From Gammaproteobacteria bacterium (GTDB taxonomy: Bacteria > Pseudomonadota > Gammaproteobacteria > Poriferisulfidales > GCA-002705445): 25,194 bases of DNA. The notes under the pieces were generated by a model, which worked only from the letters and a program-made list of their open reading frames with translations, did not search any database and had not been told where the DNA came from. Within the stretch, counting starts at the first letter, position 1. Each line of letters starts with the position of its first letter. Positions 9,875 through 24,433 of the stretch are shown here, one piece after another. The position numbers and the translations under genes are program-made. Location of the stretch: the NCBI GenBank assembly GCA_002702235.1, contig NZYO01000005.1:24852-50045 (forward strand), read 5' to 3'.

Positions 9875-10429
9875 TTATTTGTAGAACGATCTCACCACTC
9901 TGTGCATAGAAGTCATCATTTTAGGAACCTCCAGATCTATTACATACATCCTTATCCAGTTGTTATCTAGTGAGCCCATCAGAGGCATCAATGCATTACC
10001 TAGCATGATTTTTGATTTATATGATGGTCCTTCGACGTATTCGTATTCTGTATACTCTGATAGTCTTTGATTCAAGTCCTTGTAAAATTCTTTATAAATT
10101 TCGTCATTTTTTATTTCTAGTTCTCTTACATTCTCTATTAATGTTAACTCAATTTTTTTCGCTACATCTTTAAGAATATTTTCTCTATTAGGCTCTTCTC
10201 GAATTAGAAGTTCATTAAATAAAATGTATATTTGAAAAAAAGATAACTCGCATAAAATTTTAAGTCTACTCTCCCATGTTTCTCCTTCGAACCCTTCATT
10301 CTCAAGGTTTAAAAGAGTTTTTTTTGAAATTTTCCATATATTCACGGCTACAACACCAGCAACTTGGCTTATTTTTCTCTCTTTATCCTTTTGGTTCCAG
10401 CCCGTGTGAATTCTTTGTATACTCATCAT
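9875..10429 (-). CDS. Conserved-looking hypothetical protein
   Basis: This 184-residue protein is not recognised. It appears soluble and mostly helical, with no signal peptide or cysteine motif. It has one cysteine, in a segment rich in aromatic residues and leucine (CELSFFQIYILFNELL, near 86-101), and charged amphipathic stretches following it. Its TAA directly abuts the stop of the RMF-like gene, and its start lies 28 bases from the divergent oxygenase gene. Two tandem ATG codons at the start leave the exact initiation ambiguous by one codon. Confidence 0.65.
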   Translation of the reverse strand: MMSIQRIHTGWNQKDKERKISQVAGVVAVNIWKISKKTLLNLENEGFEGETWESRLKILCELSFFQIYILFNELLIREEPNRENILKDVAKKIELTLIENVRELEIKNDEIYKEFYKDLNQRLSEYTEYEYVEGPSYKSKIMLGNALMPLMGSLDNNWIRMYVIDLEVPKMMTSMHRVVRSFYK

Positions 10430-10457
10430 ATCATTATAACTTAATACAATATTTTTG

Positions 10458-11030
10458 ATGAAAGAAATTAAAGAGAACTCATTTATTTTTGAATGTCATG
10501 AAGTTATTCAAAAAAGTATGTGTGAGCAAATAATAAATAGATTTGAGGAAGATAAGGATGGGCAGTACAGAGGGAAAATCGGTCAAACTGTCAAAAGTGA
10601 TGAGTCAATTAAAAAATCTACGGATATTTTTATAAGTGGTAAAGATCATTGGAAAGACGTAGATCAATTGTTGTTTAACTCTTTGGCATCTGCTTTAAGT
10701 AAGATAAGAAAAAAATATGAATTCTTTAATGGCCCTTTTAAAGATTGCGGCTATGGAATTCAAAAAACATCCATCAATGAATATTATAGTTGGCATATAG
10801 ACGGTGGAAGCCATGAGTTTAGCAAGAGACAACTTGTTGCTATTTGGTATCTAAATGATTTAGAAAGTAATGAGGGAGGAGAAACGGAATTTGAATACCA
10901 AAAAATTCAAATTCGACCAGAAGCAGGAAAATTGATTTTGTTTCCTCCTTTTTGGACTCATAGACATCAAGGTGCGCCAGTAAAAATAGGTACAAAGTAC
11001 ATTGCTACAACTTGGATTGTGTTTGCCTGA
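10458..11030 (+). CDS. 2-oxoglutarate/Fe(II)-dependent oxygenase (prolyl-4-hydroxylase/PKHD-like)
   Basis: This 190-residue protein has the double-stranded beta-helix oxygenase pattern. The metal ligands are H113 and D115 in SWHIDGG and H168 (or H170) in WTHRHQG; K180 in GTKYIATTW is a likely 2-oxoglutarate ligand. The middle segment YLNDLESNEGGETEF is typical of the P4H/PKHD class, including the GGET turn. The ATG at 10458 is preferred over a TTG one codon upstream. Members hydroxylate prolyl or other residues in proteins, or small molecules; the substrate is unknown. It converges with the small unknown gene at 11032, the two stops being one base apart, and is divergent from the unknown gene at 10429. 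Confidence 0.85.
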   Translation: MKEIKENSFIFECHEVIQKSMCEQIINRFEEDKDGQYRGKIGQTVKSDESIKKSTDIFISGKDHWKDVDQLLFNSLASALSKIRKKYEFFNGPFKDCGYGIQKTSINEYYSWHIDGGSHEFSKRQLVAIWYLNDLESNEGGETEFEYQKIQIRPEAGKLILFPPFWTHRHQGAPVKIGTKYIATTWIVFA

Positions 11031-11031
11031 G

Positions 11032-11358
11032 TTACTCTTTTAAAAAAATTGTATCTTCCATATTGCCAGTTGTATCTATATCGATCGTTTTAACGTCTGG
11101 CATTTGGTTTAAAATATATGCAGCCATAAGAATTGCTGTTTCTTTTTTACCTAAATGAACTGAAGTAAAAAGTCTGTCAGCAACGATCTGACATCTTTGA
11201 ACTTGATTTGGATTATCTACCCAGGATTTACTCATTTTCCAACCTTTATTCATATCGGCATCAAGCTTATTGAAGTAATCTTGTGCATCTGAAACAATTT
11301 TACTGCTAATTTTAAGAGGGTAAGAGTTTTCCCCTAATATGATTTTTACTTCAAACAT
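11032..11358 (-). CDS. Hypothetical protein, last gene of the minus-strand cluster opposite dsr
   Basis: This 108-residue protein begins with an alternating beta-like segment (FEVKIILGENSYPLKIS), then a helical centre with a single cysteine (QRCQIVADRLF) and a helix AILMAAYILNQMP. The size and the strand-helix start are loosely like ZapA-type proteins, but I do not claim the match. It follows the 66-residue gene by 16 bases, so it likely belongs to the same transcript as the DsrC-like and Cas6-like genes. Function unknown. Confidence 0.65.
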   Translation of the reverse strand: MFEVKIILGENSYPLKISSKIVSDAQDYFNKLDADMNKGWKMSKSWVDNPNQVQRCQIVADRLFTSVHLGKKETAILMAAYILNQMPDVKTIDIDTTGNMEDTIFLKE

Positions 11359-11374: not shown

Positions 11375-11575
11375 TTATTTTTTTGAACCTTTTTCTTCGT
11401 GGGCGTCATCTACGATTTCCATCGCTAGATTCATATACTCAGACCTATGTTTTGCTAAATCTGATTCATCACTTTCAGGTGCAAAGTAGTCTTTAGGGTC
11501 AATACCCTCTCTGTCAAGTTCGATGAATTTTTTCTGCATCTCAAGTAATTTTTTTATCTTATCTTGTTTATCCAT
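11375..11575 (-). CDS. Small acidic hypothetical protein
   Basis: This 66-residue, highly charged protein is predicted helical: an N-terminal helix with leucines (IKKLLEMQKKFIELDREG), a short linker containing DYFAPESDESD, and a second helix (EYMNLAMEIVDDAHEE). No family is recognised. It lies between the DsrC-like gene (88 bases upstream) and the 108-residue gene (16 bases downstream), all on the minus strand. The 88-base gap upstream may hold its own promoter. Confidence 0.6.
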   Translation of the reverse strand: MDKQDKIKKLLEMQKKFIELDREGIDPKDYFAPESDESDLAKHRSEYMNLAMEIVDDAHEEKGSKK

Positions 11576-11663: not shown

Positions 11664-12002
11664 TCAATAACCACCCTTTCTTCTACTTTCGGGAAGGCCT
11701 GAGATTCTTCCACCCTGTTTACTTGGGTCCCCTGGGAATAAATCGTATAAAACTTTTGCATCAATTTTCTCTCCCCATTTTTTTTCGAAAAATTTTACAA
11801 GCTTTCTAGTATTTGGTTGATTGCCAGCATTATTGAAAAATTCATCTCTTAAGTGATTTATAACGTCCCAATGACGTTCAGTAAGCTCTATTTTTTCTTG
11901 TTCAGCCAAGTATTTACAAAGATCTTCGTTCCAATCTTCAGCATTTTCAAGATATCCCATTGGACTGGTTTCAATAACTTTTCCATTAAACTCTATACTC
12001 AT
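11664..12002 (-). CDS. DsrC/TusE-family protein lacking both redox cysteines (RspA type)
   Basis: This 112-residue protein aligns by eye with DsrC and TusE throughout: FNGKVIETSPMGYLENAEDW at the start, ERHWDVINHLRDEF in the middle and LYDLFPGDPSKQGGRISGLP near the end. True DsrC carries a penultimate cysteine and a second one about 11 residues before it; TusE keeps only the penultimate one. This copy ends ESRRKGGY and has no cysteine at all, so it cannot carry persulfide or form the DsrC trisulfide. Cysteine-free homologues have been grouped as RspA and proposed to be regulatory. A GGGGAA ribosome binding site precedes its ATG. It follows the Cas6-like gene by 16 bases. Confidence 0.85.
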   Translation of the reverse strand: MSIEFNGKVIETSPMGYLENAEDWNEDLCKYLAEQEKIELTERHWDVINHLRDEFFNNAGNQPNTRKLVKFFEKKWGEKIDAKVLYDLFPGDPSKQGGRISGLPESRRKGGY

Positions 12003-12018
12003 GATATATATTCCCCGA

Positions 12019-12693
12019 TTAGTTCTTTACTGCTACAGGAGCAATACTTTTGTAAGGTAAAAAGATACCACAACCAAATAATTTTCCAATACCAAATCCA
12101 TTTTCCAATATAGCGATAGATTGCTCTGGTTCAAGCTCTGTAATGAGTAAAGTAGTGGTTTTGAAAGTTTTTTCTGGAGTGACTACCAAATGCTTTTTTC
12201 CGCACATCATTTTTTTAATCTTAAAGCAAAGTTTGTCGTTACAATATTTATATAGTCTGTTCTGTATACTTTCCTCAGCTTCATTTTCGTCAATAATTAG
12301 ATAACGACAAAATAAAGTATCATAAGGCATCAAATCTTTGATGTGAAACTTATCAAGATATACATCATATTCACCAACTTTAAGATAAGAATTATCTAAA
12401 ACTCTAAAATTATCGGCAAATTGCCTAGGCATTCTTAAAATGAATTTTGTTCTCTTAGATAGATATATTTCATTATCCGGTCTTTGCCATCCAGCACCTG
12501 ACATCGCACCATGAATAGAATTAATAGATAAATTTTCTATCTCGGAAATGTTAGGTATTTTTTTATTTAAAGCTTGAAGTAAGTCATAAGCATGGTCAGC
12601 AGCAATTCTGGAACATTTTACATTAAAAATCACGTCAACGTATTCACTTACAATTTGACTATCTTCTTGAATATTTTCTTCTTCCCAATACAT
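12019..12693 (-). CDS. Cas6-like RAMP protein (Cmx6/MYXAN type), without a CRISPR array
   Basis: This 224-residue protein resembles the Cas6/Cmx6 group of CRISPR RNA-processing endonucleases. Supporting features are an N-terminal strand leading into ADHAYDLLQALNKKIP (about 32-47), a HG turn at 61-62, the basic strand LSKRTKFILRMPR (78-90), and a C-terminal glycine-rich loop GFGIGKLFGCGIFLPYKSI (199-217) typical of RAMP proteins. Such proteins have ferredoxin-like folds and bind or cut RNA hairpins. No CRISPR repeat array or other cas gene occurs in the window. The 62-residue gene ends directly before its ATG and the RspA-type gene follows, implying a role in this sulfur-linked cluster rather than immunity. 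The family call is from memory of motifs; catalytic activity is uncertain. Confidence 0.6.
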   Translation of the reverse strand: MYWEEENIQEDSQIVSEYVDVIFNVKCSRIAADHAYDLLQALNKKIPNISEIENLSINSIHGAMSGAGWQRPDNEIYLSKRTKFILRMPRQFADNFRVLDNSYLKVGEYDVYLDKFHIKDLMPYDTLFCRYLIIDENEAEESIQNRLYKYCNDKLCFKIKKMMCGKKHLVVTPEKTFKTTTLLITELEPEQSIAILENGFGIGKLFGCGIFLPYKSIAPVAVKN

Positions 12694-12882
12694 TTAATAC
12701 TTCCCAATAAATAAATTTTCAAGATCTTGTTCATAGTTATCTGGAGTATCGTCAAATGGTGGTTTCAGATCTATAGACAAAAACATTTCACCATCCTCAA
12801 TTTTTATTTTAATAAATTTTTTCAAATCATTATAAGACTGTATTTCATGTTGTGAGATTAAAATTTCGCTAATTGATATCAT
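12694..12882 (-). CDS. Small acidic protein between TauD-like and Cas6-like genes
   Basis: This 62-residue protein is not recognised. It consists of a hydrophobic start (MISISEILIS), an amphipathic helix with lysines, a strand-like MFLSIDLKPPFDD, and an acidic tail ending LENLFIGKY. Its ATG overlaps the stop of the TauD-like gene (ATGA), and its own stop directly abuts the ATG of the Cas6-like gene, so it is almost certainly translated from the same message. The tight coupling suggests a subunit or partner of the Cas6-like protein, which is inference only. Confidence 0.65.
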   Translation of the reverse strand: MISISEILISQHEIQSYNDLKKFIKIKIEDGEMFLSIDLKPPFDDTPDNYEQDLENLFIGKY

Positions 12883-13703
12883 TTAAGCTCATCTCCAAAT
12901 CTTAATCTTAACAAAAAGCGTTTATTATTTTCTAAATCTTCATAACTAGATCTTGCATGCAATACATTGTTAGCAATAATTCCTTGATTTTTTTTTAACT
13001 TAATTTTAAAAATTAATGGATTGTTTAAATCTAAAAAATTATCAATAAATTTTTTTATTTTTGGTAACTGTTCAGAACTTTTCCATTCTATATTTTTTTC
13101 ACGCATCGTGTATCTCATTGTTAAATTGTTTGCTTTATCAACATTAAAGACGAAAGAGCTAAAATTCCTATTGATCTCTAAATTTTTATTTGATGGTATT
13201 TTAAAAACATCTTTTTGGGTTAGGTAACCAATAAAATTTTTTGATTCTTTCATCAGCGCCTTGTAAAGAATTCTATGATCTAAGAAATAATTTTCACCTC
13301 CGTGTATTGCAGGGTTTTTACAATATAAGATAAATGCTCTAACTTCTTCTTTTTCAGAATTATAATATCCGTCTGTGTGCCAATTAAGTTTTTTATTTGT
13401 ATAGGGGATATATTCACCTTGTCTTTTGTCTTTAATTGCAGTGATATTTGAGACACCATTTTTATCTGAGTAAGGATTTTGAATTATTTTTTCTAGTCCA
13501 AGATTGTTGGCGAATTTAAGTAGGTTTGAATTAGTACAATCGTTTAATTCAAATAAAGTAAAATTATACTTCTTAATATTTGAACTAATTTTTTTCCTAT
13601 CTTTTATGGTGATATTTCCAATATCTGGGATTTTTACATTATATAAATCCTGAAAGAAACTAAGATTTTCACTATCTTTTTTGTTAATTGGTATTGAATT
13701 CAT
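12879..13703 (-). CDS. TauD/TfdA-family 2-oxoglutarate-dependent oxygenase
   Basis: This 274-residue protein carries the TauD/TfdA facial triad H109-x-D111 (NWHTDGYY) and H249 (NNVLHARSSY), with arginines in RFLLRLRF (262-268) for 2-oxoglutarate binding. The flanking motif NPAIHGGENYFLD is also typical of the family. TauD itself releases sulfite from taurine, but many relatives act on betaines, amino acids or other acids; nothing here fixes the substrate. It is the first gene of the minus-strand group divergent from dsrA and is coupled (ATGA) to the 62-residue gene. No tau transporter genes are nearby, so taurine use is not supported. Confidence 0.85.
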   Translation of the reverse strand: MNSIPINKKDSENLSFFQDLYNVKIPDIGNITIKDRKKISSNIKKYNFTLFELNDCTNSNLLKFANNLGLEKIIQNPYSDKNGVSNITAIKDKRQGEYIPYTNKKLNWHTDGYYNSEKEEVRAFILYCKNPAIHGGENYFLDHRILYKALMKESKNFIGYLTQKDVFKIPSNKNLEINRNFSSFVFNVDKANNLTMRYTMREKNIEWKSSEQLPKIKKFIDNFLDLNNPLIFKIKLKKNQGIIANNVLHARSSYEDLENNKRFLLRLRFGDELK

Positions 13704-13709
13704 GGAATA

Positions 13710-13738
13710 ACGATACTTGAAAAAGTATTATGTATCAA
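13710..13738 (-). promoter_or_regulatory. Possible sigma70-type promoter for the TauD-like gene cluster
   Basis: Read on the minus strand, TTGATA (13738-13733) and TATCGT (13715-13710) are spaced by 17 bases, giving 5 of 6 and 4 of 6 matches to consensus. The start would be only a few bases before the ATG at 13703, so the leader would be very short or absent. The -10 region overlaps the ATACTT-gaaa-AAGTAT inverted repeat. This is a weak prediction. Confidence 0.25.
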
Positions 13739-13779
13739 AGGTATACAGATACCCCATTTGGGGGGGTTAATTACTCCCC
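13713..13779. promoter_or_regulatory. Array of inverted repeats between the divergent TauD-like and dsrA genes
   Basis: Three or more successive palindromic elements occupy this stretch. ATACTT-gaaa-AAGTAT is at 13713-13728. GGTAT-acag-ATACC is at 13740-13753. An 18-base palindrome GGGG-gt-TAATTA-ct-CCCC is at 13762-13779, with an overlapping CCCC-attt-GGGG at 13752-13763. The runs of G and C are striking in such AT-rich DNA. Their place between two divergent operons suggests operator sites for one or more regulators of the sulfur genes. The last palindrome would be centred about 71 bases upstream of the predicted dsr start, a usual activator position. No known regulator motif is matched with confidence. 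Confidence 0.6.
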
Positions 13780-13806
13780 ATAAAGCATGTTTAATATATG
13801 GCATAT

Positions 13807-13835
13807 TTGAATAAAATATATAAAATAATTCTAAT
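13807..13835 (+). promoter_or_regulatory. Predicted sigma70 promoter of the dsr operon
   Basis: TTGAAT at 13807-13812 and TCTAAT at 13830-13835 are separated by exactly 17 bases, matching consensus at 4 of 6 and 5 of 6 positions. Transcription would begin near 13842, giving a leader of about 19 bases that contains the dsrA ribosome binding site. In AT-rich DNA such matches arise easily, so this is a moderate call. Confidence 0.4.
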
Positions 13836-13860
13836 ATTTAGATGATTCATGGAGAATGAA

Positions 13861-15111
13861 ATGGCTGATAAAAGACATCCTACACCAATGCTAGACGAAT
13901 TAGAACATGGCCCATGGCCAAGTTTTATTTCTGGAATTAAAAGATTAAGAGATAGTCACGATGACAAAAGAATCTCAGGTATGGCAAACGACCTATTGGG
14001 TCAGCTGGAACATTCTTATGAAACACGTAAGGGTTATTGGAAAGGTGGAACAGTAAGTGTATTCGGTTATGGAAGTGGAATTATTCCAAGGTTTTCTGAA
14101 GTAGGATCTTCTTTCCCAGAATCAAAAGAATTTCATACTTTAAGAGTTCAACCTCCTGCAGGAAATTATTATACAACTGACATGCTAAGACAACTTGGCA
14201 AAAGTTGGGAAAAACATGGATCAGGTTTAAGTACTTTCCACGGCCAGACTGGTAATATTATGTTTATTGGTGCTACCACAGAGAATACTCAACATTTTTT
14301 TGATGAAATTAATGATTATGGTTGGGATCTTGGCGGAGCCGGCCCTTGTGTTCGAACTGGAATGTGTTGCGTTGGAGCTGCAAGATGTGAGCAATCAAAT
14401 CTAGATGAAATAAAAATCCATAGAACTCTCCTTAACAACTTTACCGATGATGTTCATCGTCCAGCCTTACCTTATAAATTTAAATTCAAAGTTTCAGGAT
14501 GCCCAAACGACTGTGTTAACTCTATTGAAAGAGCCGACTTTTCGATTATAGGTACTTGGAAAGATGACATGAAAGTTGACCAAGATAAAGTTAAGGAGTT
14601 TGTAGCAAAAAAAGGACGTAAATATGTAATTGATAACGTAATTACACGCTGTCCTACTAATTCACTTTCACTAGAAGATAATGATGAGCTTACAGTTGAA
14701 AATAAAAACTGCGTAAGATGTATGCACTGTTTAAATGTAATGCCTGAAGCTCTCAGTCCTGGTGATGAAAAGGGTGCAACCATTTTGATGGGTGGAAAGA
14801 GAACTTTAAAAATCGGTGACTTGATGGGAACAGTAGTTGTTCCATTTATGAAACTTGATACTGAAGAGGATTATGAAAAGCTCACTGAGTTAGCTGAAGA
14901 AACAATAGATTTTTGGGCTGAAAACGGATTAGAGCATGAAAGATGTGGAGAAATGATCGAAAGAATTGGATTAGTGAACTTCCTTGAAGGAATTGGATTA
15001 GAAGTCGATCCAAACATGGTTAACGATCCAACTACAAGCTCTTACGTAAGAATGGATGGATGGGACGAAGAAGCTGAAAAATGGTTTAGAGACAGAGCGC
15101 AAGCCTCATAA
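13861..15111 (+). CDS. dsrA: Reverse dissimilatory sulfite reductase, alpha subunit
   Basis: With DsrB this forms the cytoplasmic siroheme enzyme that oxidizes sulfane sulfur carried by DsrC to sulfite. The start at 13861 (MADKRHPTPMLDELE) is chosen over the ATG at 13849 because GGAGA lies 5 bases before it and the family begins there. In the 416-residue protein the siroheme/[4Fe-4S] cysteines are C163, C169/C170 and C176, and C214 and C218 (SGCPNDC). An inserted ferredoxin domain has C264 and C284, C287, C290 (NCVRCMHC). The segment FISGIKRLRD and the dsrEFH/dsrL context mark it as the oxidative (reverse) type. It is the first gene of the operon. Confidence 0.97.
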   Translation: MADKRHPTPMLDELEHGPWPSFISGIKRLRDSHDDKRISGMANDLLGQLEHSYETRKGYWKGGTVSVFGYGSGIIPRFSEVGSSFPESKEFHTLRVQPPAGNYYTTDMLRQLGKSWEKHGSGLSTFHGQTGNIMFIGATTENTQHFFDEINDYGWDLGGAGPCVRTGMCCVGAARCEQSNLDEIKIHRTLLNNFTDDVHRPALPYKFKFKVSGCPNDCVNSIERADFSIIGTWKDDMKVDQDKVKEFVAKKGRKYVIDNVITRCPTNSLSLEDNDELTVENKNCVRCMHCLNVMPEALSPGDEKGATILMGGKRTLKIGDLMGTVVVPFMKLDTEEDYEKLTELAEETIDFWAENGLEHERCGEMIERIGLVNFLEGIGLEVDPNMVNDPTTSSYVRMDGWDEEAEKWFRDRAQAS

Positions 15112-15133
15112 ATTTTCTAAAGGAGTATATTTA

Positions 15134-16216
15134 ATGGACCAGCAAGCACAAAAACAAAGATCACCAATAGAAACAGGATGTCCAGATGCATTTCAATATA
15201 TGCATCCTGTTATGAGAAAAAATTACGGTAACTGGGCTTATCATGAAGACCCAAGACCTGGTGTTTTAAAGCACGTTGCACATAGTGGTGAGGCTATTTG
15301 GACTGTTCGTGCAGGTACTCAAAGAATTTTAGATGTATTTACTTTAAATTTACTCTGCGATATCGGTGATAAGTTTGCAGATGGATATGTAAGGTTTACT
15401 ATAAGAAGTAATATTGAATATATGGTTGACCAAGAGTCTAAGGTTGGACCACTAATAGTGGAATTGGAAAAAAATGGTTTTGTAGTTGGCGGAACTAAAA
15501 ACTCAGTTGCTATGATTTCTCACACCCAAGGTTGGCTGCATTGTGATATTCCTGGAACAGATGCTTCGGGTGTTGTTAAAGCTATGATGGATGAGCTGAT
15601 CGAGGAGTTTAAAGGCTGGAATATGCCAAACAGAGTCCATATGACAACATCTTGTTGTCAAATTAATTGTGGTGGTCAAGGCGATATCGCTATCAATGTT
15701 CAGCATACGAAGCCACCAAAAATTAATCATGAGCTTGTATCTAATGTGTGCGAAAGACCGTCTGTTGTTGCAAGATGTCCAGTAGCAGCTATTCGCCCAG
15801 CTCAGGTAAATGGAAAACCTTCGCTAGAGGTTGATGAGAAAAAATGTATCTGTTGCGGAGCATGTTATCCTCCTTGCCCTCCAATGCAAATCAATGATGC
15901 CGAACATACAAAACTTTCAATCTGGGTCGGTGGTAATCATTCAAATGCGAGAGGAAAGCCAACATTTCAAAAATTAGTTGCAGCTGGAATACCAAATAAT
16001 CCACCAAGATGGCCTGAAGCCACTGCTATTGTTAAAAAAATTCTGCGTGCATATAGAGATGATGCAAAAGATTGGGAAAGAATTAATGATTGGGTTGCAA
16101 GAATTGGATGGCCTAGATTTTTTGAACTAACTGGATTGCCATTTACTAAGTTCCATATTAATAACTGGAAAGGTGCCAGAAATAGTTTGAATGCATCGAC
16201 ACATATTAGGTTCTAA
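15134..16216 (+). CDS. dsrB: Reverse dissimilatory sulfite reductase, beta subunit
   Basis: This is the partner of DsrA and carries the siroheme active site of the alpha2beta2 enzyme. The frame is open from 15056 inside dsrA, but the real start is the ATG at 15134 (MDQQAQKQ), preceded by AGGAG 8 bases away and 22 bases after the dsrA stop. In the 360-residue protein the cluster and siroheme cysteines lie at C137 (GWLHCDIP) and C174-C179 (TTSCCQINCGG). The ferredoxin domain has C238, C241, C244 and C248 (KCICCGACYPPCPP). No truncation or unusual residue was noticed. Confidence 0.97.
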   Translation: MDQQAQKQRSPIETGCPDAFQYMHPVMRKNYGNWAYHEDPRPGVLKHVAHSGEAIWTVRAGTQRILDVFTLNLLCDIGDKFADGYVRFTIRSNIEYMVDQESKVGPLIVELEKNGFVVGGTKNSVAMISHTQGWLHCDIPGTDASGVVKAMMDELIEEFKGWNMPNRVHMTTSCCQINCGGQGDIAINVQHTKPPKINHELVSNVCERPSVVARCPVAAIRPAQVNGKPSLEVDEKKCICCGACYPPCPPMQINDAEHTKLSIWVGGNHSNARGKPTFQKLVAAGIPNNPPRWPEATAIVKKILRAYRDDAKDWERINDWVARIGWPRFFELTGLPFTKFHINNWKGARNSLNASTHIRF

Positions 16217-16235
16217 GTTTTCATAGTTAGCAATA

Positions 16236-16628
16236 ATGAAGATCGGAATATTAATAAACGAGGGGCCCTATCAACATCAAGCATCTGATACTGCTCTTCA
16301 GTTCACTAAGTCTGCTATAAAAAAAGGTCACGAAATATTTAGAGTTTTCTTCTATAACGATGGTGTAAATAATGCAACAAGACTTGCTATACCTCCCCAA
16401 GATGATCGTAATCTAACTAAAGAGTGGTCTGACTTAGCCTCAGAACACAATATAGATTTAGTTGTTTGCGTTGCAGCGGCACAAAGAAGAGGTCTTATTG
16501 ATGCTGATGAGGCAAAAAGAAATGGAAAGGACGCAGATAATATCGCGGAAGGATTTAGAATATCAGGACTAGGACAACTCGTTGAAGCTGGAATTCAAGC
16601 TGATAGATTAATTACTTTTGGAGATTGA
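16236..16628 (+). CDS. dsrE: Sulfurtransferase subunit DsrE
   Basis: DsrE is the persulfide-carrying subunit of the cytoplasmic DsrE2F2H2 complex, which receives sulfur from TusA and passes it to DsrC. The 130-residue protein holds the active cysteine at position 78 (DLVVCVAAAQRRG), the same position as in Allochromatium vinosum DsrE. It starts 19 bases after dsrB with only a weak ribosome binding site and runs into dsrF with a translationally coupled junction. The homologous TusD works in tRNA 2-thiolation, but the dsr context makes DsrE the right call. Confidence 0.95.
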   Translation: MKIGILINEGPYQHQASDTALQFTKSAIKKGHEIFRVFFYNDGVNNATRLAIPPQDDRNLTKEWSDLASEHNIDLVVCVAAAQRRGLIDADEAKRNGKDADNIAEGFRISGLGQLVEAGIQADRLITFGD

Positions 16629-16630
16629 TG

Positions 16631-17047
16631 ATGAGTGATGAAGCAAAAGTAAAAAAATTCATGTATGTTAACCGAAAATCTCCGTATGGAACAATTTATG
16701 CACTTGAGTCTCTCGAGGTGGTGCTAATTACTGCTGCTTTTGATCAAGACGTAAGTCTTGCATTTTTAGATGATGGAGTATTTCAGCTTACAAAAAACCA
16801 GAATACAGATGGAATAGGTATGAAGAACTTTTCACCTACATTTTCTGCATTAGGTGACTATGATATTAAAAAGATCTACATTGAAAAAGAATCTTTAGAC
16901 GAAAGAGGTCTTTCAGTTGACGATTTACAGGATTTAACTTGGGAAGATGAAGATAACGATTACGAAGAAAAAAGCTCAATTCATGTAGTCAACAAACAAG
17001 AGCTTTCTCAAATTATGAATGAACAAGACGTTATGCTTAGTTTTTAG
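16631..17047 (+). CDS. dsrF: Sulfurtransferase subunit DsrF
   Basis: DsrF is the structural subunit of DsrEFH, homologous to TusC. Three start codons stand in tandem across the dsrE stop (TTG 16625, ATG 16628, ATG 16631). I choose 16631 (MSDEAKVKKFMY) because the GGAG at 16620 then has a 7-base spacing and the family begins with this segment. The 138-residue protein contains KSPYGTIYALESLE and FLDDGVFQLT, typical of DsrF, and has no cysteine, consistent with sulfur transfer residing in DsrE and DsrH. The C-terminus ends LSF as in relatives. Confidence 0.94.
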   Translation: MSDEAKVKKFMYVNRKSPYGTIYALESLEVVLITAAFDQDVSLAFLDDGVFQLTKNQNTDGIGMKNFSPTFSALGDYDIKKIYIEKESLDERGLSVDDLQDLTWEDEDNDYEEKSSIHVVNKQELSQIMNEQDVMLSF

Positions 17048-17056
17048 GAAATTTTT

Positions 17057-17368
17057 ATGAATAATATGCTACATACAATTAACAAGTCACCTTTTGAAAA
17101 CAACACTCTAAGTTCTTGTTTCTCACTAATTACAAAAGATAGCAGTGTTATTTTAATAGAAGATGCTGTAGTGGCTTCCATGCAAAATACAAAATTTTCA
17201 GATTTAGTTTCTAAAGCGTCCAAGGATAACAAAGTTTATGTTCTTGAGCCTGATTTATTGGCAAGAGGACTTGATAAAAGCAAAATTATTGATGGTGTAA
17301 CTCCGGTTGGATATGATGATTTTGTTGATTTAACGGTTGAACATGATTCTGTTCAATCATGGTTATAA
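17057..17368 (+). CDS. dsrH: Sulfurtransferase subunit DsrH
   Basis: DsrH is the small subunit of the DsrEFH complex, homologous to TusB. The 103-residue protein begins MNNMLHTINKSPF and has its conserved cysteine at position 21 (LSSCFSL), equivalent to Cys20 of A. vinosum DsrH. It ends SVQSWL, typical of the family. AGGAA lies six bases upstream of the ATG at 17057, supporting it over a second ATG three codons later. It is followed after 21 bases by dsrC. Confidence 0.95.
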   Translation: MNNMLHTINKSPFENNTLSSCFSLITKDSSVILIEDAVVASMQNTKFSDLVSKASKDNKVYVLEPDLLARGLDKSKIIDGVTPVGYDDFVDLTVEHDSVQSWL

Positions 17369-17389
17369 CTTAAATAGGAGGTAATACTC

Positions 17390-17722
17390 ATGGCATTAGA
17401 AGTTGGTGGTAAGTCTTTTGAGACTGATGAGGAAGGTTATTTAGCTAATCTAAATGATTGGAATCCTGATTTAGCAAACGCTATGGCTGAGGTTGATGGA
17501 GCAGCATTGGATGAAAATCATTGGGAAGTTATCAACTTTCTTAGAGAATACTATGAAGAATATCAAATAGCTCCAGCTGTAAGGGTTCTTACAAAGGCTA
17601 TTGGTAAAAAATTAGGTAAGGATAAAGGAAACAGTAAATATTTATATGAGCTTTTCCCTTATGGCCCAGCTAAACAAGCATGTAAATACGCTGGTCTTCC
17701 AAAGCCTACAGGTTGCGTGTAA
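17390..17722 (+). CDS. dsrC: Sulfur carrier protein DsrC
   Basis: DsrC takes persulfide from DsrEFH on its flexible C-terminal arm, presents it to DsrAB for oxidation, and is then handled by DsrMKJOP. The 110-residue protein has both hallmark cysteines, the penultimate C109 (PTGCV) and C98 (KQACKY), so it is a true DsrC rather than TusE. The core DENHWEVINFLREYYEEY is well kept. A strong ribosome binding site (AGGAGG) precedes the ATG, the best in the operon, in line with the high DsrC levels reported in sulfur oxidizers. It contrasts with the cysteine-free homologue at 11664-12002. Confidence 0.97.
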   Translation: MALEVGGKSFETDEEGYLANLNDWNPDLANAMAEVDGAALDENHWEVINFLREYYEEYQIAPAVRVLTKAIGKKLGKDKGNSKYLYELFPYGPAKQACKYAGLPKPTGCV

Positions 17723-17740
17723 GCATCTTAATTTTTTTAG

Positions 17741-18478
17741 ATGGAATCCGTAACCTTTCTAAGTGGTTTTATGGCCGCGATATTTTACTTTGCGGCCAGT
17801 GTTCTTTTGTATGGCTTATTTTATAAAATTTTTCAATATACAAAAACTCCTGCTCCTTTGAAAATTCCTACCATGCCTGCTCCTTTAACTAGAACAGGTG
17901 TTGGATTTAGAATTTTCAAAGAAGTAGTTATTTTTGAAAGTTTATTTAAGTCAAACAAAGCAACTTGGTTGTTTGGATGGCTTTTTCACTTTGGTCTTTT
18001 TTTAGACATGCTGAGACACTTGCGATACTTTATAGATCCAATTTGGGGTTGGGTAGCTTTTATTCAGCCGTTTGGTAAGTACGGGTCCATATTAATGGTT
18101 GTTGGGTTGCTAGGGCTTTTGGGTCGAAGAATTTTTGTAGATAGAGTTAGATATATATCCTCACCCTCAGACCATTTGATGCTTGTATTACTTTTGGCAA
18201 TATCTTCTACAGGCATAGCTATGAGTTTCTACTTAGGCGCTGATGTAATTAGTGTTAAGTCCTTTTTTATAGGACTATTCACATTTGATATTCAATATAT
18301 TCCACCTGATCCTATTCTTATATCGCATTTGATTATGGTTGCTTTCTTAATGATAATTTTTCCATATAGTAAATTACTTCATGCCCCGGGGTTATTTTTC
18401 AGCCCTTCGCGAAATCAAGTAGATAATGCTAGAGAGAAAAGACACATATCGAAATGGGCTGCAGACTTGGAAAAATAA
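17741..18478 (+). CDS. dsrM: DsrM, cytochrome b subunit of the DsrMKJOP complex
   Basis: DsrM is a membrane heme b protein of the NarI (respiratory nitrate reductase gamma) family that exchanges electrons between quinone and DsrK. The 245-residue protein has about five to six hydrophobic segments, beginning at residues 5-28. Candidate heme histidines lie in WLFHFGLFLDMLRHLRYF, SDHLMLVLL and ISHLIMVAF. The C-terminal cytoplasmic tail SPSRNQVDNAREKRH is characteristic of DsrM. It starts 18 bases after dsrC, with a weak ribosome binding site. Confidence 0.95.
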   Translation: MESVTFLSGFMAAIFYFAASVLLYGLFYKIFQYTKTPAPLKIPTMPAPLTRTGVGFRIFKEVVIFESLFKSNKATWLFGWLFHFGLFLDMLRHLRYFIDPIWGWVAFIQPFGKYGSILMVVGLLGLLGRRIFVDRVRYISSPSDHLMLVLLLAISSTGIAMSFYLGADVISVKSFFIGLFTFDIQYIPPDPILISHLIMVAFLMIIFPYSKLLHAPGLFFSPSRNQVDNAREKRHISKWAADLEK

Positions 18479-18519
18479 ATGTACAGTTTTAAAAGAAAAA
18501 ATATAATTTAGAATAAGTT

Positions 18520-20058
18520 ATGGCAGAAAATAAATTTGATACACCAGAGTATAGAGAATACAGGATCATTCCTAAATTAAAAGATGGAGTGATGAAGCAC
18601 AGCAAACCTTTTGTTTCTAAAGAGCAATTTCAAACACCTCTTGGTTATCCTGGAGAACTGGTGGATAACTGGCAAGAAAAAGCTATTAACAAAATGGGTG
18701 AATTACAGAGTAAGTATAGATCTCTTCAAGTTTATCTTGACTCGTGTGTTAAATGCGGAGCTTGTACAGATAAGTGTCATTATTATTTAGGTACAACGGA
18801 TCCAAAAAATATGCCCGTTGCAAGACAAGATCTATATAGACAAGTTTATAGAAGATACTTTACTCTTGCTGGAAAACTTTTTCCAAAACTTGTGGGTGCA
18901 AAAGATTTAACAAAAGAAGTATTAGACGATTGGTACTCATATTTTCATCAATGCTCTCAATGCAGAAGATGTTCTGTGTATTGCCCATATGGAATAGATA
19001 CTGCAGAAATTTCTATGGCCGCTAGAGAAGTACTTGACACCGTTGGCGTGGGACAAAAATATTGTAACGAAATCATTGGTAAGGTTCATAAAATTGGAAA
19101 TAATCTTGGGCTGCCTGGCCCAGCACTTGAAGACACTTTGGAAGGCTTAGAAGAAGATGTAGAGGAAGAAACAGGCGTAAAGGTTAAATTTCCTCTGGAC
19201 CAAGAAGGCGCAGATGTTTTATTAGTTACTCCGTCTGCAGATTTTTTTGCTGAACCACACGTTGATGGATTAATTGGTTATGCTAAAGTTCTTCATGAAG
19301 CTGGAATTTCTTGGACATTAAGCTCTCACGCAAGTGAAGCTGCTAACTTTGGAATGTTTATAGGTAGCTATGACAACATGAGAAAGTTAGCATTAAGAAT
19401 TAGAGAAGCCGCAATTAAACTAAAAGTAAAAAGAATAGTTTTTGGCGAATGTGGTCATGCTTGGAGAGTCGCTTATAGTTTTCTTAATACTCTTGCTGGT
19501 CCTTGGGATTTTTTAGATCAAAATTATCCAGTTCCTCAACATATTTGTGAAGTCACATACAATTTAATACAAGAAAATAAGCTTAAGTTTGACAAGACTA
19601 AAAATGATGACATGACATTAACCTATCATGATTCATGTAACGTAGCCCGAGCATCAAGAATGGGCGATGTTAAAGGCGGGCAATTTTTAATTCCTAGAGA
19701 AATTATTAAAGCCACATGTAATAATTTTCACGATATGTCTGAAAATACTATCAAAGAAGGCACCTATTGTTGCGGCGGAGGCGGAGGCCTATTAACTGAT
19801 GACTTAATGGAATTAAGAGTTAAAGGAGCTTTGCCTAGAATGGAGGCTTTAGATGAGGTGGTAAGTAAGAAAGGAGTAACTCATATGGCTGCAATATGCG
19901 CTATATGTAAGAGCCAATTTGCGAAAGTACTGCCATATTACGGTTTTTCGATGGATCAGATAGTGAGTGTCCATCAATTAGTTAGCAATGCAATTATTTT
20001 AACAGGTGGTACAGATAATGAAGACTCCCCTAAAGAGGATATAGAGGAAGCAGCGTAA
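18520..20058 (+). CDS. dsrK: DsrK, HdrD-like iron-sulfur subunit of DsrMKJOP
   Basis: DsrK is the cytoplasmic catalytic subunit facing DsrC, related to the heterodisulfide reductase subunit HdrD. The 512-residue protein has two [4Fe-4S] ferredoxin sites: C76, C79, C82, C86 (CVKCGACTDKC) and C145, C148, C151, C155 (CSQCRRCSVYC). C-terminal CCG-type cysteine elements follow (ECGHAW, HDSCN, YCCGGGGG and CAICKSQ), which hold the noncubane cluster thought to act on disulfide or trisulfide. The acidic C-terminal tail is short. It begins 41 bases after dsrM with no strong ribosome binding site. Confidence 0.96.
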   Translation: MAENKFDTPEYREYRIIPKLKDGVMKHSKPFVSKEQFQTPLGYPGELVDNWQEKAINKMGELQSKYRSLQVYLDSCVKCGACTDKCHYYLGTTDPKNMPVARQDLYRQVYRRYFTLAGKLFPKLVGAKDLTKEVLDDWYSYFHQCSQCRRCSVYCPYGIDTAEISMAAREVLDTVGVGQKYCNEIIGKVHKIGNNLGLPGPALEDTLEGLEEDVEEETGVKVKFPLDQEGADVLLVTPSADFFAEPHVDGLIGYAKVLHEAGISWTLSSHASEAANFGMFIGSYDNMRKLALRIREAAIKLKVKRIVFGECGHAWRVAYSFLNTLAGPWDFLDQNYPVPQHICEVTYNLIQENKLKFDKTKNDDMTLTYHDSCNVARASRMGDVKGGQFLIPREIIKATCNNFHDMSENTIKEGTYCCGGGGGLLTDDLMELRVKGALPRMEALDEVVSKKGVTHMAAICAICKSQFAKVLPYYGFSMDQIVSVHQLVSNAIILTGGTDNEDSPKEDIEEAA

Positions 20059-20093
20059 TTTTAATAAAATTTAGATAAATATGGAGAATTAAT

Positions 20094-22049
20094 GTGAGTA
20101 GTCCAAAAGAAATAGTTGAGAAAAAGCTTACCTTCAGAAGTTTTGAAGATGGCGATTATAAATGGAAGAATTTTTCAGACCAAATTTTTGAGGGCGATCA
20201 TTCACATAAATGTCCTACTTATGTTCATAGAACACCTCCATGCCAAGGAAGCTGTCCTTCAGGTGAAGACATTAGAGGCTGGTTAGATATAGTCAGAGGT
20301 ATTGAGAAGCCGCCAGCAGACATCTCCATGCAGGAGTATGCTTTCCGAAGATCAACTACAGCAAATCCATTTCCATCTATGATGGGAAGAGTTTGCCCTG
20401 CACCCTGCCAAACAGGTTGCAATAGAAATGATGTTGAAGAATTTGTAGGTATTAATGCCGTTGAGCAGTACATTGGTGACACTGCTATCAAAGAGGGCTT
20501 TAGTTTTGAAAGTACAGATAAGTTAAGTGGCTATAAAGTTGCAATTATAGGTGGAGGACCAGCTGGTATGTCTGCTGCTTACCAACTTCGTAAAAAAGGA
20601 CATGCATCAACAATTTTTGAGGCTCACGATAAACTTGGCGGAATGATGAGGTATGGGATCCCAAGTTATAGAACACCAGATCAATTTCTAGACCCTGAAG
20701 TAAAAAGAATTTTAGATATGGGACACATTGAAGTTAAGTTAAATACAACTGTAGGTAAAGATATTAGTCTAAGTGAAATTGAAAACGAATATGATGCTGT
20801 TTTGTGGGCAATTGGATGTTGGACTGGAAGGCCACTACCTATCCCAAATAGTGATGCACCTAATTGCATTTCTGCAATTCAGTATTTAGAAGCCATTAGG
20901 CAAGAAAGACTTCACGTTACAACCAAAAAAGTTGTGTGCGTTGGAGGCGGCGATACATCTATCGATGTAGTTTCTTCATCTAGACGTCTTGGCACGTTAA
21001 AAAATGATCTCGAAGATAACATTAAACCTGAAAATATATTAAAAGATAACTCATCCCAAGACTCTAGTTTAGCTAGTGATCGAGTATTAAATGAGGTAAC
21101 TTTAACAACTTTATTTCCAAAAAATGAAATGACAGCAACCGAAGAGGAAGTACGTGATGCTGAAAAGGAAGGAGTTAAAATTTTTGACAGTGTAATGCCT
21201 TTAGAAGTTATCCTTGATGACTCCGGAAGGGCAAAAGGTTTAAAAATGGCTAAATGTACTATGGACGGCAACAAGCCAGTTCCTGTAGAAGGTTCAGAAT
21301 TTGAAATTGAAGCAGATTTAATAGTTGCAGCTATCGGCCAAAGCGGTGTTTTAGACGGATTAGAAGAATTAAATAATGGAAAAAATCTCATCGACGCAGA
21401 TTCCCACTACGCAGTTCCTGGCAAAGAAAAACATTTTGTTGCTGGAGACATTATAAGACCTCATCTTCTAACTACAGCGATTGGTCAGGGTGCTGTAGCA
21501 TCAGATACTATTGACAAGTTTTTAAATTCTGTCGAGTTAAGAAAAAGACCAAAAGTTGATGTCCATCATTTTGATCTTATTCGTAAGTTAAATGAATCCG
21601 GACTGTCACCTGAGTCTTATGAAGGTGGAGAATATAGGGGAACAGATAATTTAGATTTCTCTGTACATAACTACGAAGATAGATCAAGCCAAGAAGTTAT
21701 TACAACTGAGAGAATGTTTTTAGGTCATTTCCCTTATACTCCAAGAAACCATCGTGAAGAGGTAGGACCTGAAGCAAATGCGATCTTAGGTAACTTTGAA
21801 GAGAGGGTAAAAAATTATACTGAAGAAGATGCAATTGCTGAAGCTGGCAGATGTATGAGTTGTGGAATGTGTTTTGAATGTGACAATTGCGTTATTTATT
21901 GTCCTCAAGACGCAGTCTTTAGGGTTAAAAAAGATAAAAGCACAACAGGAAGATATGTTGATACGGACTATCAAAAATGTATTGGATGCCACATATGTTC
22001 TGATGTTTGCCCTACAGGCTATATAGATATGGCTCTTGGGGACCACTAG
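20094..22049 (+). CDS. dsrL: DsrL, iron-sulfur flavoprotein NAD(P)H:acceptor oxidoreductase
   Basis: DsrL passes electrons from DsrAB sulfur oxidation to NAD(P)+ and is essential for sulfur oxidation in A. vinosum. The 651-residue protein resembles glutamate synthase small subunits. An N-terminal cluster domain has C40, C50, C54, C101, C105 and C109. The FAD motif is IIGGGPAGMS at 151-160, and the nucleotide motif is VGGGDTSIDV at 283-292. A C-terminal ferredoxin domain has C587, C590, C593, C596, C599 and C603, then C629, C632, C635 and C639. The start is a GTG at 20094, preceded by GGAGA; the nearby ATG codons run into stops. Its position between dsrK and dsrJ is the standard order in sulfur-oxidizing gammaproteobacteria. 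Confidence 0.96.
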   Translation: MSSPKEIVEKKLTFRSFEDGDYKWKNFSDQIFEGDHSHKCPTYVHRTPPCQGSCPSGEDIRGWLDIVRGIEKPPADISMQEYAFRRSTTANPFPSMMGRVCPAPCQTGCNRNDVEEFVGINAVEQYIGDTAIKEGFSFESTDKLSGYKVAIIGGGPAGMSAAYQLRKKGHASTIFEAHDKLGGMMRYGIPSYRTPDQFLDPEVKRILDMGHIEVKLNTTVGKDISLSEIENEYDAVLWAIGCWTGRPLPIPNSDAPNCISAIQYLEAIRQERLHVTTKKVVCVGGGDTSIDVVSSSRRLGTLKNDLEDNIKPENILKDNSSQDSSLASDRVLNEVTLTTLFPKNEMTATEEEVRDAEKEGVKIFDSVMPLEVILDDSGRAKGLKMAKCTMDGNKPVPVEGSEFEIEADLIVAAIGQSGVLDGLEELNNGKNLIDADSHYAVPGKEKHFVAGDIIRPHLLTTAIGQGAVASDTIDKFLNSVELRKRPKVDVHHFDLIRKLNESGLSPESYEGGEYRGTDNLDFSVHNYEDRSSQEVITTERMFLGHFPYTPRNHREEVGPEANAILGNFEERVKNYTEEDAIAEAGRCMSCGMCFECDNCVIYCPQDAVFRVKKDKSTTGRYVDTDYQKCIGCHICSDVCPTGYIDMALGDH

Positions 22050-22090
22050 ATATATAATTCCATTAGCTTAAAAGTCGAGGAGAAACTTTT

Positions 22091-22495
22091 GTGTTTAAAG
22101 TTGGGATTGTTACATATTTAATTACTATATTTATATTACTCTTCAGTTTCAAAGCTGTCTCTCATAATGATAATGATCATGGAATATCTGCAGCATCGGG
22201 AGATAAATGCGTAGAACCGCTTGAAATCATTAGAGCAAAACATCATATACTTTTGAATGCGCATAGTCATGAAACTGTCGTAAAAGGTATCAGGACAACT
22301 CAACATAGTTTAAAGAATTGTATAAACTGTCATATTCAACCAACTGCAGACGGCACTTTTCCTGAAAAAAATTCTGAAGAACATTTCTGCTCAGGATGCC
22401 ATATATCTGCAGCTGTAAATTTCACATGTTTTGATTGTCATGCCTCGAAACCATTAGCTAAAACATCTAATGCCTCAAGGAACAAGAATGAATAA
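22091..22495 (+). CDS. dsrJ: DsrJ, periplasmic triheme cytochrome c
   Basis: DsrJ is the periplasmic multiheme subunit of DsrMKJOP. The 134-residue protein has an N-terminal hydrophobic segment (about 4-22) that serves as signal or membrane anchor, then three CxxCH heme sites at 77-81, 100-104 and 113-117. C40 (GDKCVEP) corresponds to the cysteine proposed as an unusual axial heme ligand in A. vinosum DsrJ. The start is a GTG at 22091 with AGGAGA 7 bases upstream. Its end overlaps the dsrO start by 8 bases. Confidence 0.95.
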   Translation: MFKVGIVTYLITIFILLFSFKAVSHNDNDHGISAASGDKCVEPLEIIRAKHHILLNAHSHETVVKGIRTTQHSLKNCINCHIQPTADGTFPEKNSEEHFCSGCHISAAVNFTCFDCHASKPLAKTSNASRNKNE

Positions 22496-23234
22496 AAAAT
22501 ATAATTTTGATCTAAGTAAAAGAAAGTTTTTAAAAGAATCTGCTGGTATTGGATTTTTAACTATAGCACCGGGTATTTTTCTGCAAAACTTTGCAAATGC
22601 TCGGGATCCAAACTTACCTGCTGATTCTTCAAAAAGATGGGGAATGTTGATCAATACAAACCTATGTGATGAAGGTTGTAATGCGTGTGTAGATGCTTGT
22701 AATGATGAGCATGGCATTGAAGATTTTGGAAGACCACATTCTGATGTTCAGTGGATAAGAAAATTAAATTTAGTCGATGAATTAACCGGTGCAAATAAGA
22801 GTATTCCAATGATGTGTCAACATTGCGAACATCCGCCGTGTGTAGATGTATGTCCAACTGGTGCATCTTTCATAAGGGCAGACGGTATTGTTTTAGTTAA
22901 TAGTCATACTTGCATTGGTTGTCGCTATTGTATGATGGCTTGTCCATACAAAGCTCGTTCTTTCGTTCACGAAAACCTTTCTAATCAACTGCCTGATGTT
23001 CCAAGGGGTAAAGGATGCGTTGAAAGTTGTACAATGTGCGTTCATAGAGTTGATAGAGGCGAACAAGAAACTGCATGTTCTGAGGCGTGTAAAAAAGACG
23101 GAGCTAAAGCTATAATTTTTGGCGATTTGAATAATCCAGAAAGTGAAATATCTAGGGAATTAAATAAATACGGTGGCAAAGCAATTCGAGCTGATTTAGG
23201 ATTAAATACTGCTGTAAGATACCAAGGAATTTAA
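22488..23234 (+). CDS. dsrO: DsrO, periplasmic ferredoxin-like iron-sulfur protein
   Basis: DsrO carries four [4Fe-4S] clusters and links DsrJ to the membrane subunit DsrP. The start at 22488 (MNKKYNFDLS) is chosen because AAGGA lies 6 bases upstream; the frame opens earlier at 22470 inside dsrJ. In this 248-residue protein cysteines cluster at 60-71, 110-122, 142-152 and 177-201, the NrfC/TtrB-type arrangement. The signal SKRKFLKESAGIGFLTIAP looks like a Tat signal but has Lys-Arg instead of the usual Arg-Arg pair. The protein is exported folded with its clusters, so the Tat route is expected. Confidence 0.95.
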   Translation: MNKKYNFDLSKRKFLKESAGIGFLTIAPGIFLQNFANARDPNLPADSSKRWGMLINTNLCDEGCNACVDACNDEHGIEDFGRPHSDVQWIRKLNLVDELTGANKSIPMMCQHCEHPPCVDVCPTGASFIRADGIVLVNSHTCIGCRYCMMACPYKARSFVHENLSNQLPDVPRGKGCVESCTMCVHRVDRGEQETACSEACKKDGAKAIIFGDLNNPESEISRELNKYGGKAIRADLGLNTAVRYQGI

Positions 23235-23236
23235 AT

Positions 23237-24433
23237 ATGCAGGATATAACAGAATACAAAATTATAGAATTTTCTAAAGCTATTTTAATTTATGGAATAA
23301 TATCTGCTATTTTAATCGGCTTAGGAGTTTATTCATTTTTCACTCTAGAGCATGAGGGCCATTGGCTAACTGGCATGAATAATCAGGTTGTTTGGGGAGT
23401 CCCCCATATGTTTGCAATTTTTTTAATCATTGCAGCCTCTGGAGTTTTAAACATCGCATCAATCTCTTCAGTATTTAATATTAAAATTTATAAGCCACTT
23501 GCTAGACTTTCAGCATTACTTGCAATCGCTTTACTAACTGGCGGGTTAATTGTGTTAGTGCTTGATTTAGGGCGACCGGAGAGGTTAATTGTTGCGATGA
23601 CAACTTTTAACTTTAAATCTATTTTTGCATGGAACATATTTTTGTACAGCGGTTTCGTGGTAATTGCAGCTTTATATTTATGGATGATGTTTGAAGCTAG
23701 ATATAACAAATTCTCGCAAAAAGTTGGAACATTTGCATTTATCTGGCGTGTTATTTTAACAACAGGTACGGGCTCGATTTTTGGTTTTTTGGTTGCCAAA
23801 GAGGCTTATAATGGAGCTATTTTAGCACCTTTATTTATAGCATTATCATTATTGTTAGGTACTGCTATATTTTATAAAGTGTTATTCTGGATGAATAAAG
23901 GATTAAATATTCCTTTAGGATCTGAAATTATTTTAAGGTTTAGAAAACTTCTTATTTATTTTACTTTTGCCGTTTTTTATCTAACGATTCTTTCTCATTT
24001 AACCAACTTATATGCAACAAAGCATCACGAATACGAGTTTTTCTTACTTTTTTCTGGGAATATTTACACTATTCTCTTTTGGATTGGTCAAATTCTAATA
24101 GGCACGTTCATACCATTACTAATTTTATATAGCAAAAATTTTTCTACAACAAAAATGGGATTATTAATCTCTAGCGCATTAATTATTTTAGGTGGGTTTT
24201 TTCAACTTTATGTAATTATTATCTCAGGGCAAGCTTTTCCACTAGACTTATTTCCAGGATACACTGAGAGTAGCTCTTTTCAAGACGGAATTATTTCACC
24301 ATATACACCCAGTATGTATGAATTTATGCTTGGATTAGGAGGGATTGGGATATCTGCTCTTATATATATATTTGCAATAATGATCTTAGACTTTACACCA
24401 AAAAGCTTAGATAACGACGCGTTAAAAAATTAA
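23237..24433 (+). CDS. dsrP: DsrP, NrfD-like integral membrane subunit
   Basis: DsrP is a multi-spanning membrane protein of the NrfD/PsrC family, the second quinone-interacting subunit of DsrMKJOP. The 398-residue protein has about ten hydrophobic segments. It contains the family segment LVLDLGRPERL near 107-117 and the loop GHWLTGMNNQVVWGVPH near 41-57. Its ATG comes 2 bases after the dsrO stop, so the two are translated together. No heme or cluster motif is present, as expected for NrfD proteins. Confidence 0.95.
   Translation: MQDITEYKIIEFSKAILIYGIISAILIGLGVYSFFTLEHEGHWLTGMNNQVVWGVPHMFAIFLIIAASGVLNIASISSVFNIKIYKPLARLSALLAIALLTGGLIVLVLDLGRPERLIVAMTTFNFKSIFAWNIFLYSGFVVIAALYLWMMFEARYNKFSQKVGTFAFIWRVILTTGTGSIFGFLVAKEAYNGAILAPLFIALSLLLGTAIFYKVLFWMNKGLNIPLGSEIILRFRKLLIYFTFAVFYLTILSHLTNLYATKHHEYEFFLLFSGNIYTILFWIGQILIGTFIPLLILYSKNFSTTKMGLLISSALIILGGFFQLYVIIISGQAFPLDLFPGYTESSSFQDGIISPYTPSMYEFMLGLGGIGISALIYIFAIMILDFTPKSLDNDALKN

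Follow-up and report, generated by a model that had tools for sequence, protein, structure and literature searches.

In Gammaproteobacteria, a gene of the Cas6 family is associated with the oxidative dissimilatory sulfite reductase (dsr) cluster; the association is real and widespread, and the linkage is firm. The accepted role of Cas6 is the processing of CRISPR RNA, and the family member described here lies outside any type I-MYXAN CRISPR system. Judging from its sequence and surroundings, we consider that this non-CRISPR Cas6 is, on balance, likely to act as an RNA-cutting regulator of sulfur oxidation within the Dsr cluster. We characterized the gene in a 25,194-nucleotide stretch of DNA (hereafter the window, meaning that whole stretch), in which it is surrounded by the following features:

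9875..10429, minus strand: 184-aa protein, a recurrent neighbour
10455..11030, plus strand: 2OG-Fe(II) oxygenase-like protein, a recurrent neighbour
11032..11358, minus strand: p108, conserved protein of 108 aa, no family above cut-off
11375..11575, minus strand: s66, conserved protein of 66 aa, no Pfam match
11664..12002, minus strand: DsrC/TusE-family paralogue (PF04358, E 3.9e-31), tail RKGGY, two C-terminal redox cysteines absent
12019..12693, minus strand: Cas6-family protein (P0001), 224 aa, with helix-1 His34, R81, R87 and the loop G199-x-G201...G207-C208-G209
12694..12882, minus strand: small acidic protein of 62 aa (s62), immediately upstream of Cas6, unmatched in Pfam, PADLOC and PDB folds
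12879..13703, minus strand: TauD/TfdA-family 2-oxoglutarate dioxygenase-like protein (PF02668, E 6.6e-16), its stop overlapping the start of s62
13704..13848, no strand: promoter region separating dsrA from the divergent Cas6 module, in which the palindrome common in the class (below) is not matched
13849..15111, plus strand: dsrA, dissimilatory sulfite reductase alpha (TIGR02064, 619.7 bits)
15056..24433, plus strand: remaining dsr operon genes (dsrB, E, F, H, C, M, K, L, J, O, P)

The open reading frame at 12019..12693 had been singled out, from the sequence alone, as an orphan RAMP/Cas6 protein of Cmx6 type. The frame is real, and so is the family assignment: the product matches the Pfam Cas6 family PF09559 at 143.6 bits (cut-off 26.7) and the PADLOC Cas6 model at 147 bits. 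Against the profiles that the original prediction proposed as a check, the Cas6 family is exceeded but TIGR02807 (cas6_cmx6, NCBIfam) is narrowly missed, with 93.3 bits for an equivalog cut-off of 98.85. The tandem ferredoxin-like folds sought in a structure prediction are present, the model (pLDDT 90) being a Cas6 fold with two ferredoxin-like (RAMP) domains that matches 40 PDB chains, Cas6-type by their titles, at E 0.001 or better. NCBI already labels some relatives Cas6/Cmx6, and membership of the 224-aa product in the Cas6 family, with a Cas6 fold, is firm. The word orphan did not survive, as the gene is part of a conserved module of TauD-like gene, 62-aa gene, Cas6 and DsrC paralogue.

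The small acidic partner and the adjacent dsr operon of the original prediction were both recovered, the former as the 62-aa upstream frame (13 D/E and 6 K) and the latter with dsrA transcribed divergently. The operon is of the oxidative type, with dsrA and dsrB, dsrE/tusD, dsrF/tusC and dsrH/tusB above their NCBIfam cut-offs, as are dsrK and dsrO, and with dsrC above its subfamily cut-off; dsrM falls below its cut-off, dsrL gives a broad NAD(P)-binding subfamily match and dsrJ has no NCBIfam match, and the names of dsrM, L, J and P are our assumption from operon order. Among the smaller neighbours, s62 matched no PDB fold at E 0.001, p108 gave a single weak NCBIfam match (E 0.07) and none in Pfam or PADLOC, and the 184-aa protein gave a weak PADLOC match to DpdK (E 0.009) and none in Pfam or NCBIfam; Rfam returned nothing in the window at gathering scores. 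Conservation of s62 is at least as good as that of Cas6 (mean column identity 58% and 53%, respectively). The 2OG-Fe(II) oxygenase-like protein at 10455-11030 matches the PADLOC CRISPR-associated '2OG' model, which may itself derive from genes next to non-CRISPR Cas6 genes such as this one. At one other locus (L062) a protein of about 237 aa, TPR-like in appearance, is encoded directly upstream of Cas6, between it and the 62-aa gene (8661-9374); relatives of this protein occur in 14 other loci, where their position was read from the median offset only.

We surveyed 274 gammaproteobacterial genomes, drawn evenly and spanning about 170 families, and found PF09559 in 91 of them, with a single match in 90 and two adjacent pieces in the remaining one (G264). 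At E < 1e-30, dsrA was called in 94 genomes; 70 more, with weaker matches that are probably other sulfite or nitrite reductases, were scored negative. Both genes were present in 87 genomes, Cas6 alone in 4, dsrA alone in 7 and neither in 176 (Fisher p 1.9e-57, a value that, like the cas1 p value below, overstates independence because the genomes are related). Physical linkage follows the same line, with dsr genes adjoining Cas6 in 32 of the 41 loci that were opened, namely the window and 40 of the other 90 carriers, picked mainly by size of contig and read over at most 17 kb each. Named genomes yielded 505 relatives when scanned, and the best 80 of these carry titles from Gammaproteobacteria (Thiohalocapsa halophila, Thiothrix, Thioploca, Thiosymbion, Acidiferrobacterales and others), from Candidatus Muproteobacteria or from unspecified Proteobacteria or bacteria; the full taxonomic range is not readable from these best 80, because the query was itself gammaproteobacterial and they are the best matches only.

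The composition of the module was read from 116 of 122 loci that were left after removal of near-copies, each count being taken over loci with enough flank. A divergent dsrA lies within 6 kb of Cas6 in at least 70 of 87 loci. Downstream, the DsrC paralogue follows within 1.5 kb in at least 91 of 106; upstream are s62, in at least 82 of 102, and the TauD-like gene, in at least 75 of 102. All of these counts are lower bounds because over-long reading-frame calls hid genes that are present (for example in L034). Even the genomes of two divergent class members (G479 and G506) hold dsr, Cas6 and the DsrC paralogue.

Exceptions to the pairing within the class are weak. In all four Cas6-positive, dsrA-negative genomes (G067, G093, G127 and G186) the contig ends on the flank expected to hold dsrA; their best dsrC matches are 74% in G067 and 47%, 43% and 48% in G186, G093 and G127, so that true absence is possible in the latter three, and G127, which is 100% complete, has a best dsrA match of E 1.1e-13 and no close dsrC, its cluster stopping at the contig end. 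Among the seven genomes with dsrA alone, four are 55-86% complete (G070, G079, G211 and G238), and in the four that were opened (G207, G123, G110 and G070) the contig stops shortly beyond s62 or leaves no more than 0.7 kb ahead of dsrA, so that Cas6 may be unassembled there. Some arrangements indicate that Cas6 and dsr can come apart: dsrA is absent from G520 (95% complete), where s62 and Cas6 are preceded by two genes that we take to be aroK and aroB; in G525, a single contig, Cas6 and its partners, s62 and the TauD-like gene, are 650 kb from dsrA, next to which lies a second, DsrC-like match that is probably the paralogue; and in L050 and L056 the gene beside Cas6 is presumably an RNase III.

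Outside the class, PF09559 was found in 0 of 47 dsrA-positive genomes of a phylum sample. We opened 16 of these 47, of which 12 had no dsrEFH in the stretch; the stretches of the other four hold dsrEFH, the TauD-like gene and s62 and lack both Cas6 and a cysteine-less DsrC. The range of the TauD-like gene and s62 is therefore wider than that of Cas6, and Cas6 together with the DsrC paralogue looks like an addition made within the class. A viral origin was also considered and rejected, with no phage record, no confirmed viral contig and, among 10 pattern hits, none that is a relative.

The original prediction reported no CRISPR repeat or other cas gene, and named a CRISPR-cas locus elsewhere in the genome that uses this protein as the finding that would speak against it. 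The absence of CRISPR extends beyond the window: an exact-repeat scan found no array in the window or in its 94-kb contig, and in the genome (1.1 Mb in 31 contigs, 94% complete, 5.6% contamination) cas1 was not found, cas3_core gave matches below cut-off only and PF09559 is represented by one gene, with no second. No array was recognized at any of 120 Cas6 loci scanned; as a control, the procedure was run on 6 CRISPR-bearing stretches and recovered arrays in 2 of them but none in the remaining four, which were short. Two of the Cas6 loci gave 3-copy repeats, which we rejected as arrays since their sequence reads as ordinary tandem repeats. With no array found in its contig, no cas1 found in its genome and dsr genes as its recurrent neighbours, the protein is a member of the Cas6 family but stands outside any type I-MYXAN CRISPR system. 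The genome survey of dsr and CRISPR co-occurrence that had been proposed at the outset came out on the side of dsr (for dsrA, 87 genomes with both and p 1.9e-57; for cas1, p 0.064; no array recognized at 120 loci). As there is apparently no CRISPR job for the dsr-linked Cas6, it probably acts on some other RNA.

The protein retains characteristic Cas6 residues. The start of helix 1, H34 here, is presumably the place of the catalytic histidine in Cas6 enzymes, and the C-terminal glycine-rich loop is what we take to be the RNA-binding element. Across 121 aligned Cas6 sequences, the window and near-copies included, H34 is kept in 120, one relative (L052) having Asn at this position, and R81, R87, G207 and G209 are kept in all. 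Four CRISPR Cmx6 proteins and one plasmid protein were aligned as well, and all five have the D33-H34 pair and the glycine loop unchanged. An SG(A/N)GW-x-RP insertion occurs in most gammaproteobacterial members and is absent from the aligned CRISPR proteins, as it is from two divergent class members (L154 and L155).

A tree of 62 proteins has a branch with 99% SH-aLRT support that separates 47 class proteins from 14 CRISPR-type proteins and one plasmid protein. The 47 comprise 40 from class loci (some of them away from dsr), 2 divergent members and 5 database homologues included by sequence only; the 14 are all cyanobacterial, 6 of them with cas3 beside them and 8 so classed by NCBI name only. 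The tree was built by a quick method with a midpoint root, and it is compatible both with descent of the dsr-linked form from a CRISPR Cas6 and with a common ancestor of the two. We also observed a Cas6/Cmx6-family gene on the Gloeobacter morelensis plasmid pGMOR1 (L162, 2974-3765); no cas gene is annotated less than 3 kb away, and the gene lies in a run of mainly hypothetical genes that includes one for a PAPS-reductase-family protein.

The gene downstream of Cas6 had been described as a cysteine-free DsrC homologue. The homology and the position stand, whereas the window protein does have one cysteine, at residue 29; it has neither of the two conserved C-terminal cysteines of a functional DsrC. 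Of 99 relatives read, 78 have no cysteine at all and every one ends in the RKGGY tail. No paralogue has the penultimate cysteine (0 of 99), and none in which the position is readable has the second tail cysteine (0 of 98); for dsrC proper the corresponding counts are 71 of 71 and 70 of 70. The usual sulfur relay is therefore not possible for the paralogue, which may instead have a sensing or regulatory role. A class of cysteine-less DsrC relatives bears the name RspA, a name that was not found in the open-licence PMC literature searched. In A. vinosum, according to passages of PMC3397948, DsrC carries sulfur on its penultimate cysteine, and a passage of PMC5944118, citing another paper, reports that DsrC binds DNA upstream of the dsr cluster.

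Our search for an RNA target covered the dsr intergenic gaps, the leaders and a palindrome upstream of dsrA, and found no target among them. The palindrome, TATCCC-N4-GGGATA with up to 2 mismatches, occurs in 58 of the 76 divergent regions between dsrA and the Cas6 module that were taken, each under 850 bp. A -10-like TANANT box follows it at 70-73 nt in 48 of these 58, compared with a mean of 0.5 and a maximum of 4 over 23 control windows. The palindrome is present upstream of dsrA even though Cas6 is distant, lying 42 kb away in G109 and on another contig in G098, G009, G163 and G090. It was rejected as a Cas6 hairpin target on account of this spacing and of its presence where Cas6 is remote, both of which lead us to read it as a dsrA promoter element or operator; together, palindrome and TANANT box appear to form a dsrA promoter architecture conserved across the class. 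A second element, of CACCCC type, lies exactly 34 nt beyond the palindrome in 23 of the 58 regions. Structured leaders of dsrA or of the TauD-like gene were not detected in 77 regions (mean z -0.48 and -0.25).

In the mechanism that we propose, the Cas6-family protein would be independent of CRISPR and would function as a lineage-specific component of the gammaproteobacterial oxidative Dsr cluster, being encoded with the TauD-like oxygenase, the 62-aa partner and the DsrC paralogue that lacks redox cysteines, divergently from dsrA. Cas6 cleavage chemistry is metal-independent, and by this usual chemistry the protein would bind and cut one structured RNA, which may belong to the control of sulfur oxidation, either among the dsr messages or as a small RNA. 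The DsrC paralogue, predicted to fold like DsrC and to bear no sulfur on tail cysteines, could report the state of the Dsr system to Cas6. A more specific version, which we put forward tentatively as one possibility, is that a CRISPR-type ribonuclease was domesticated as a sulfur-state-dependent RNA switch, in which the DsrC look-alike would sense Dsr loading and, with the 62-aa protein, gate the cutting, by Cas6, of a transcript on which the output of sulfur oxidation in Gammaproteobacteria depends.

Other explanations were weighed against this proposal. Cas6 might serve CRISPR arrays in trans where a CRISPR system has no Cas6 of its own, and cas1 was indeed detected in 42 of 91 Cas6-positive and 62 of 183 Cas6-negative class genomes; at p 0.064, however, cas1 shows no significant association with Cas6 in the class, 49 of the 91 carriers, the window's genome among them, are without cas1, the 20 genomes of the window's order include 19 with Cas6, 17 with dsrA and 2 with cas1, and the location of Cas6 tracks dsr. 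We regard service in trans as strongly disfavoured and very improbable. It is rather unlikely, too, that the Cas6 fold has been kept as a protein scaffold or a non-catalytic RNA clamp that cuts no RNA: family members can be without the histidine, position 34 being Asn in L052 and likewise in the Cas6 of the CRISPR-associated transposon structure 8fcj, but its retention across many families, in 120 of 121 sequences, with invariant arginines and glycine loop, speaks against this reading. The idea put forward in the original prediction, of an RNA-binding protein that links a DsrC/TusE-like sulfur relay to tRNA thiolation, draws on the adjacency of Cas6 to a DsrC paralogue and on the homology of DsrC to TusE, which hands sulfur to MnmA for tRNA modification (passages of PMC3397948); the paralogue, however, lacks the tail cysteines throughout, and the window neighbours scanned include no known tRNA-modification gene, which leaves the link unsupported and, in our estimate, quite improbable.

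A further possibility is that the substrate of Cas6 is the dsr mRNA, cut at hairpins in the gaps that follow dsrA and dsrC, which would raise the dsrC message over that of dsrAB. At Cas6-positive loci, these intercistronic gaps form stronger hairpins than shuffled sequences do (dsrC-dsrM, mean z -1.95, n=54; dsrA-dsrB, mean z -1.07, n=74), and passages of PMC11267869 give log2 shifts of -4.7 and -1.2 for dsrA and dsrC, which share one operon in A. vinosum. Comparable hairpins nevertheless occur without Cas6 (z -1.64, n=7, and z -1.20, n=5, respectively, small numbers from four other-class and four class loci, one of which ends at a contig end), and for this reason we rejected them as a Cas6-specific target; in addition, the stem sequences examined vary between species, and the dsrC-dsrM gap of the window measures just 18 nt. 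Cleavage at these hairpins therefore seems unlikely to us, and we retain the broader proposal of an RNA-cutting regulator within the Dsr cluster.

The neighbourhood is already in print, as cas6 is drawn ('purple: cas6') in a figure of dissimilatory sulfur gene organization in MAGs (PMC10989796, mLife 2023); in that paper, cas6 is named in the figure legend alone and the word CRISPR is absent. Elsewhere in the passages found, Cas6 belongs to CRISPR systems, and no discussion of the Cas6-dsr link was found in the open-licence PMC literature, a body that mostly leaves out subscription papers and preprints. The novelty of the link is accordingly provisional. If true, the proposal would give Cas6 a non-CRISPR job in energy metabolism, on a branch present in 87 of the 94 dsrA-positive class genomes, and would add a layer of RNA-level control to an environmentally major pathway. 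Automatic annotation of dsr-linked Cas6 genes as CRISPR genes may, moreover, lead to partial CRISPR systems being overcounted. The proposal lends itself to direct testing, since the genes are short and lie close together and the carriers include at least one named strain in culture, Thiohalocapsa halophila DSM 6210.

Set beside known systems, the window protein shares its family (PF09559, TIGR02807) with the type I-MYXAN Cas6/Cmx6 proteins, such as those of Cylindrospermopsis (L159) and Gloeothece (L160) plasmids, in which D33-H34 and the glycine loop are invariant as they are in the class members aligned with them. It differs from them in sequence, with 23-27% identity and a place on the opposite side of the 99% branch, and no cas3, cas5, cas7, cas8 or array was found adjoining its gene. 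The DsrC paralogue matches DsrC/TusE both as a family (PF04358) and in sequence to the solved DsrC 1yx3, but ends in RKGGY, without redox cysteines, where DsrC/TusE proteins end in PTGCV/I. The nearest solved relative of the Cas6-family protein is that of 8fcj, from a type I-B CRISPR-associated transposon, which has Asn in place of His34 and which, by the titles of the entries, sits in a Cascade-transposition complex.
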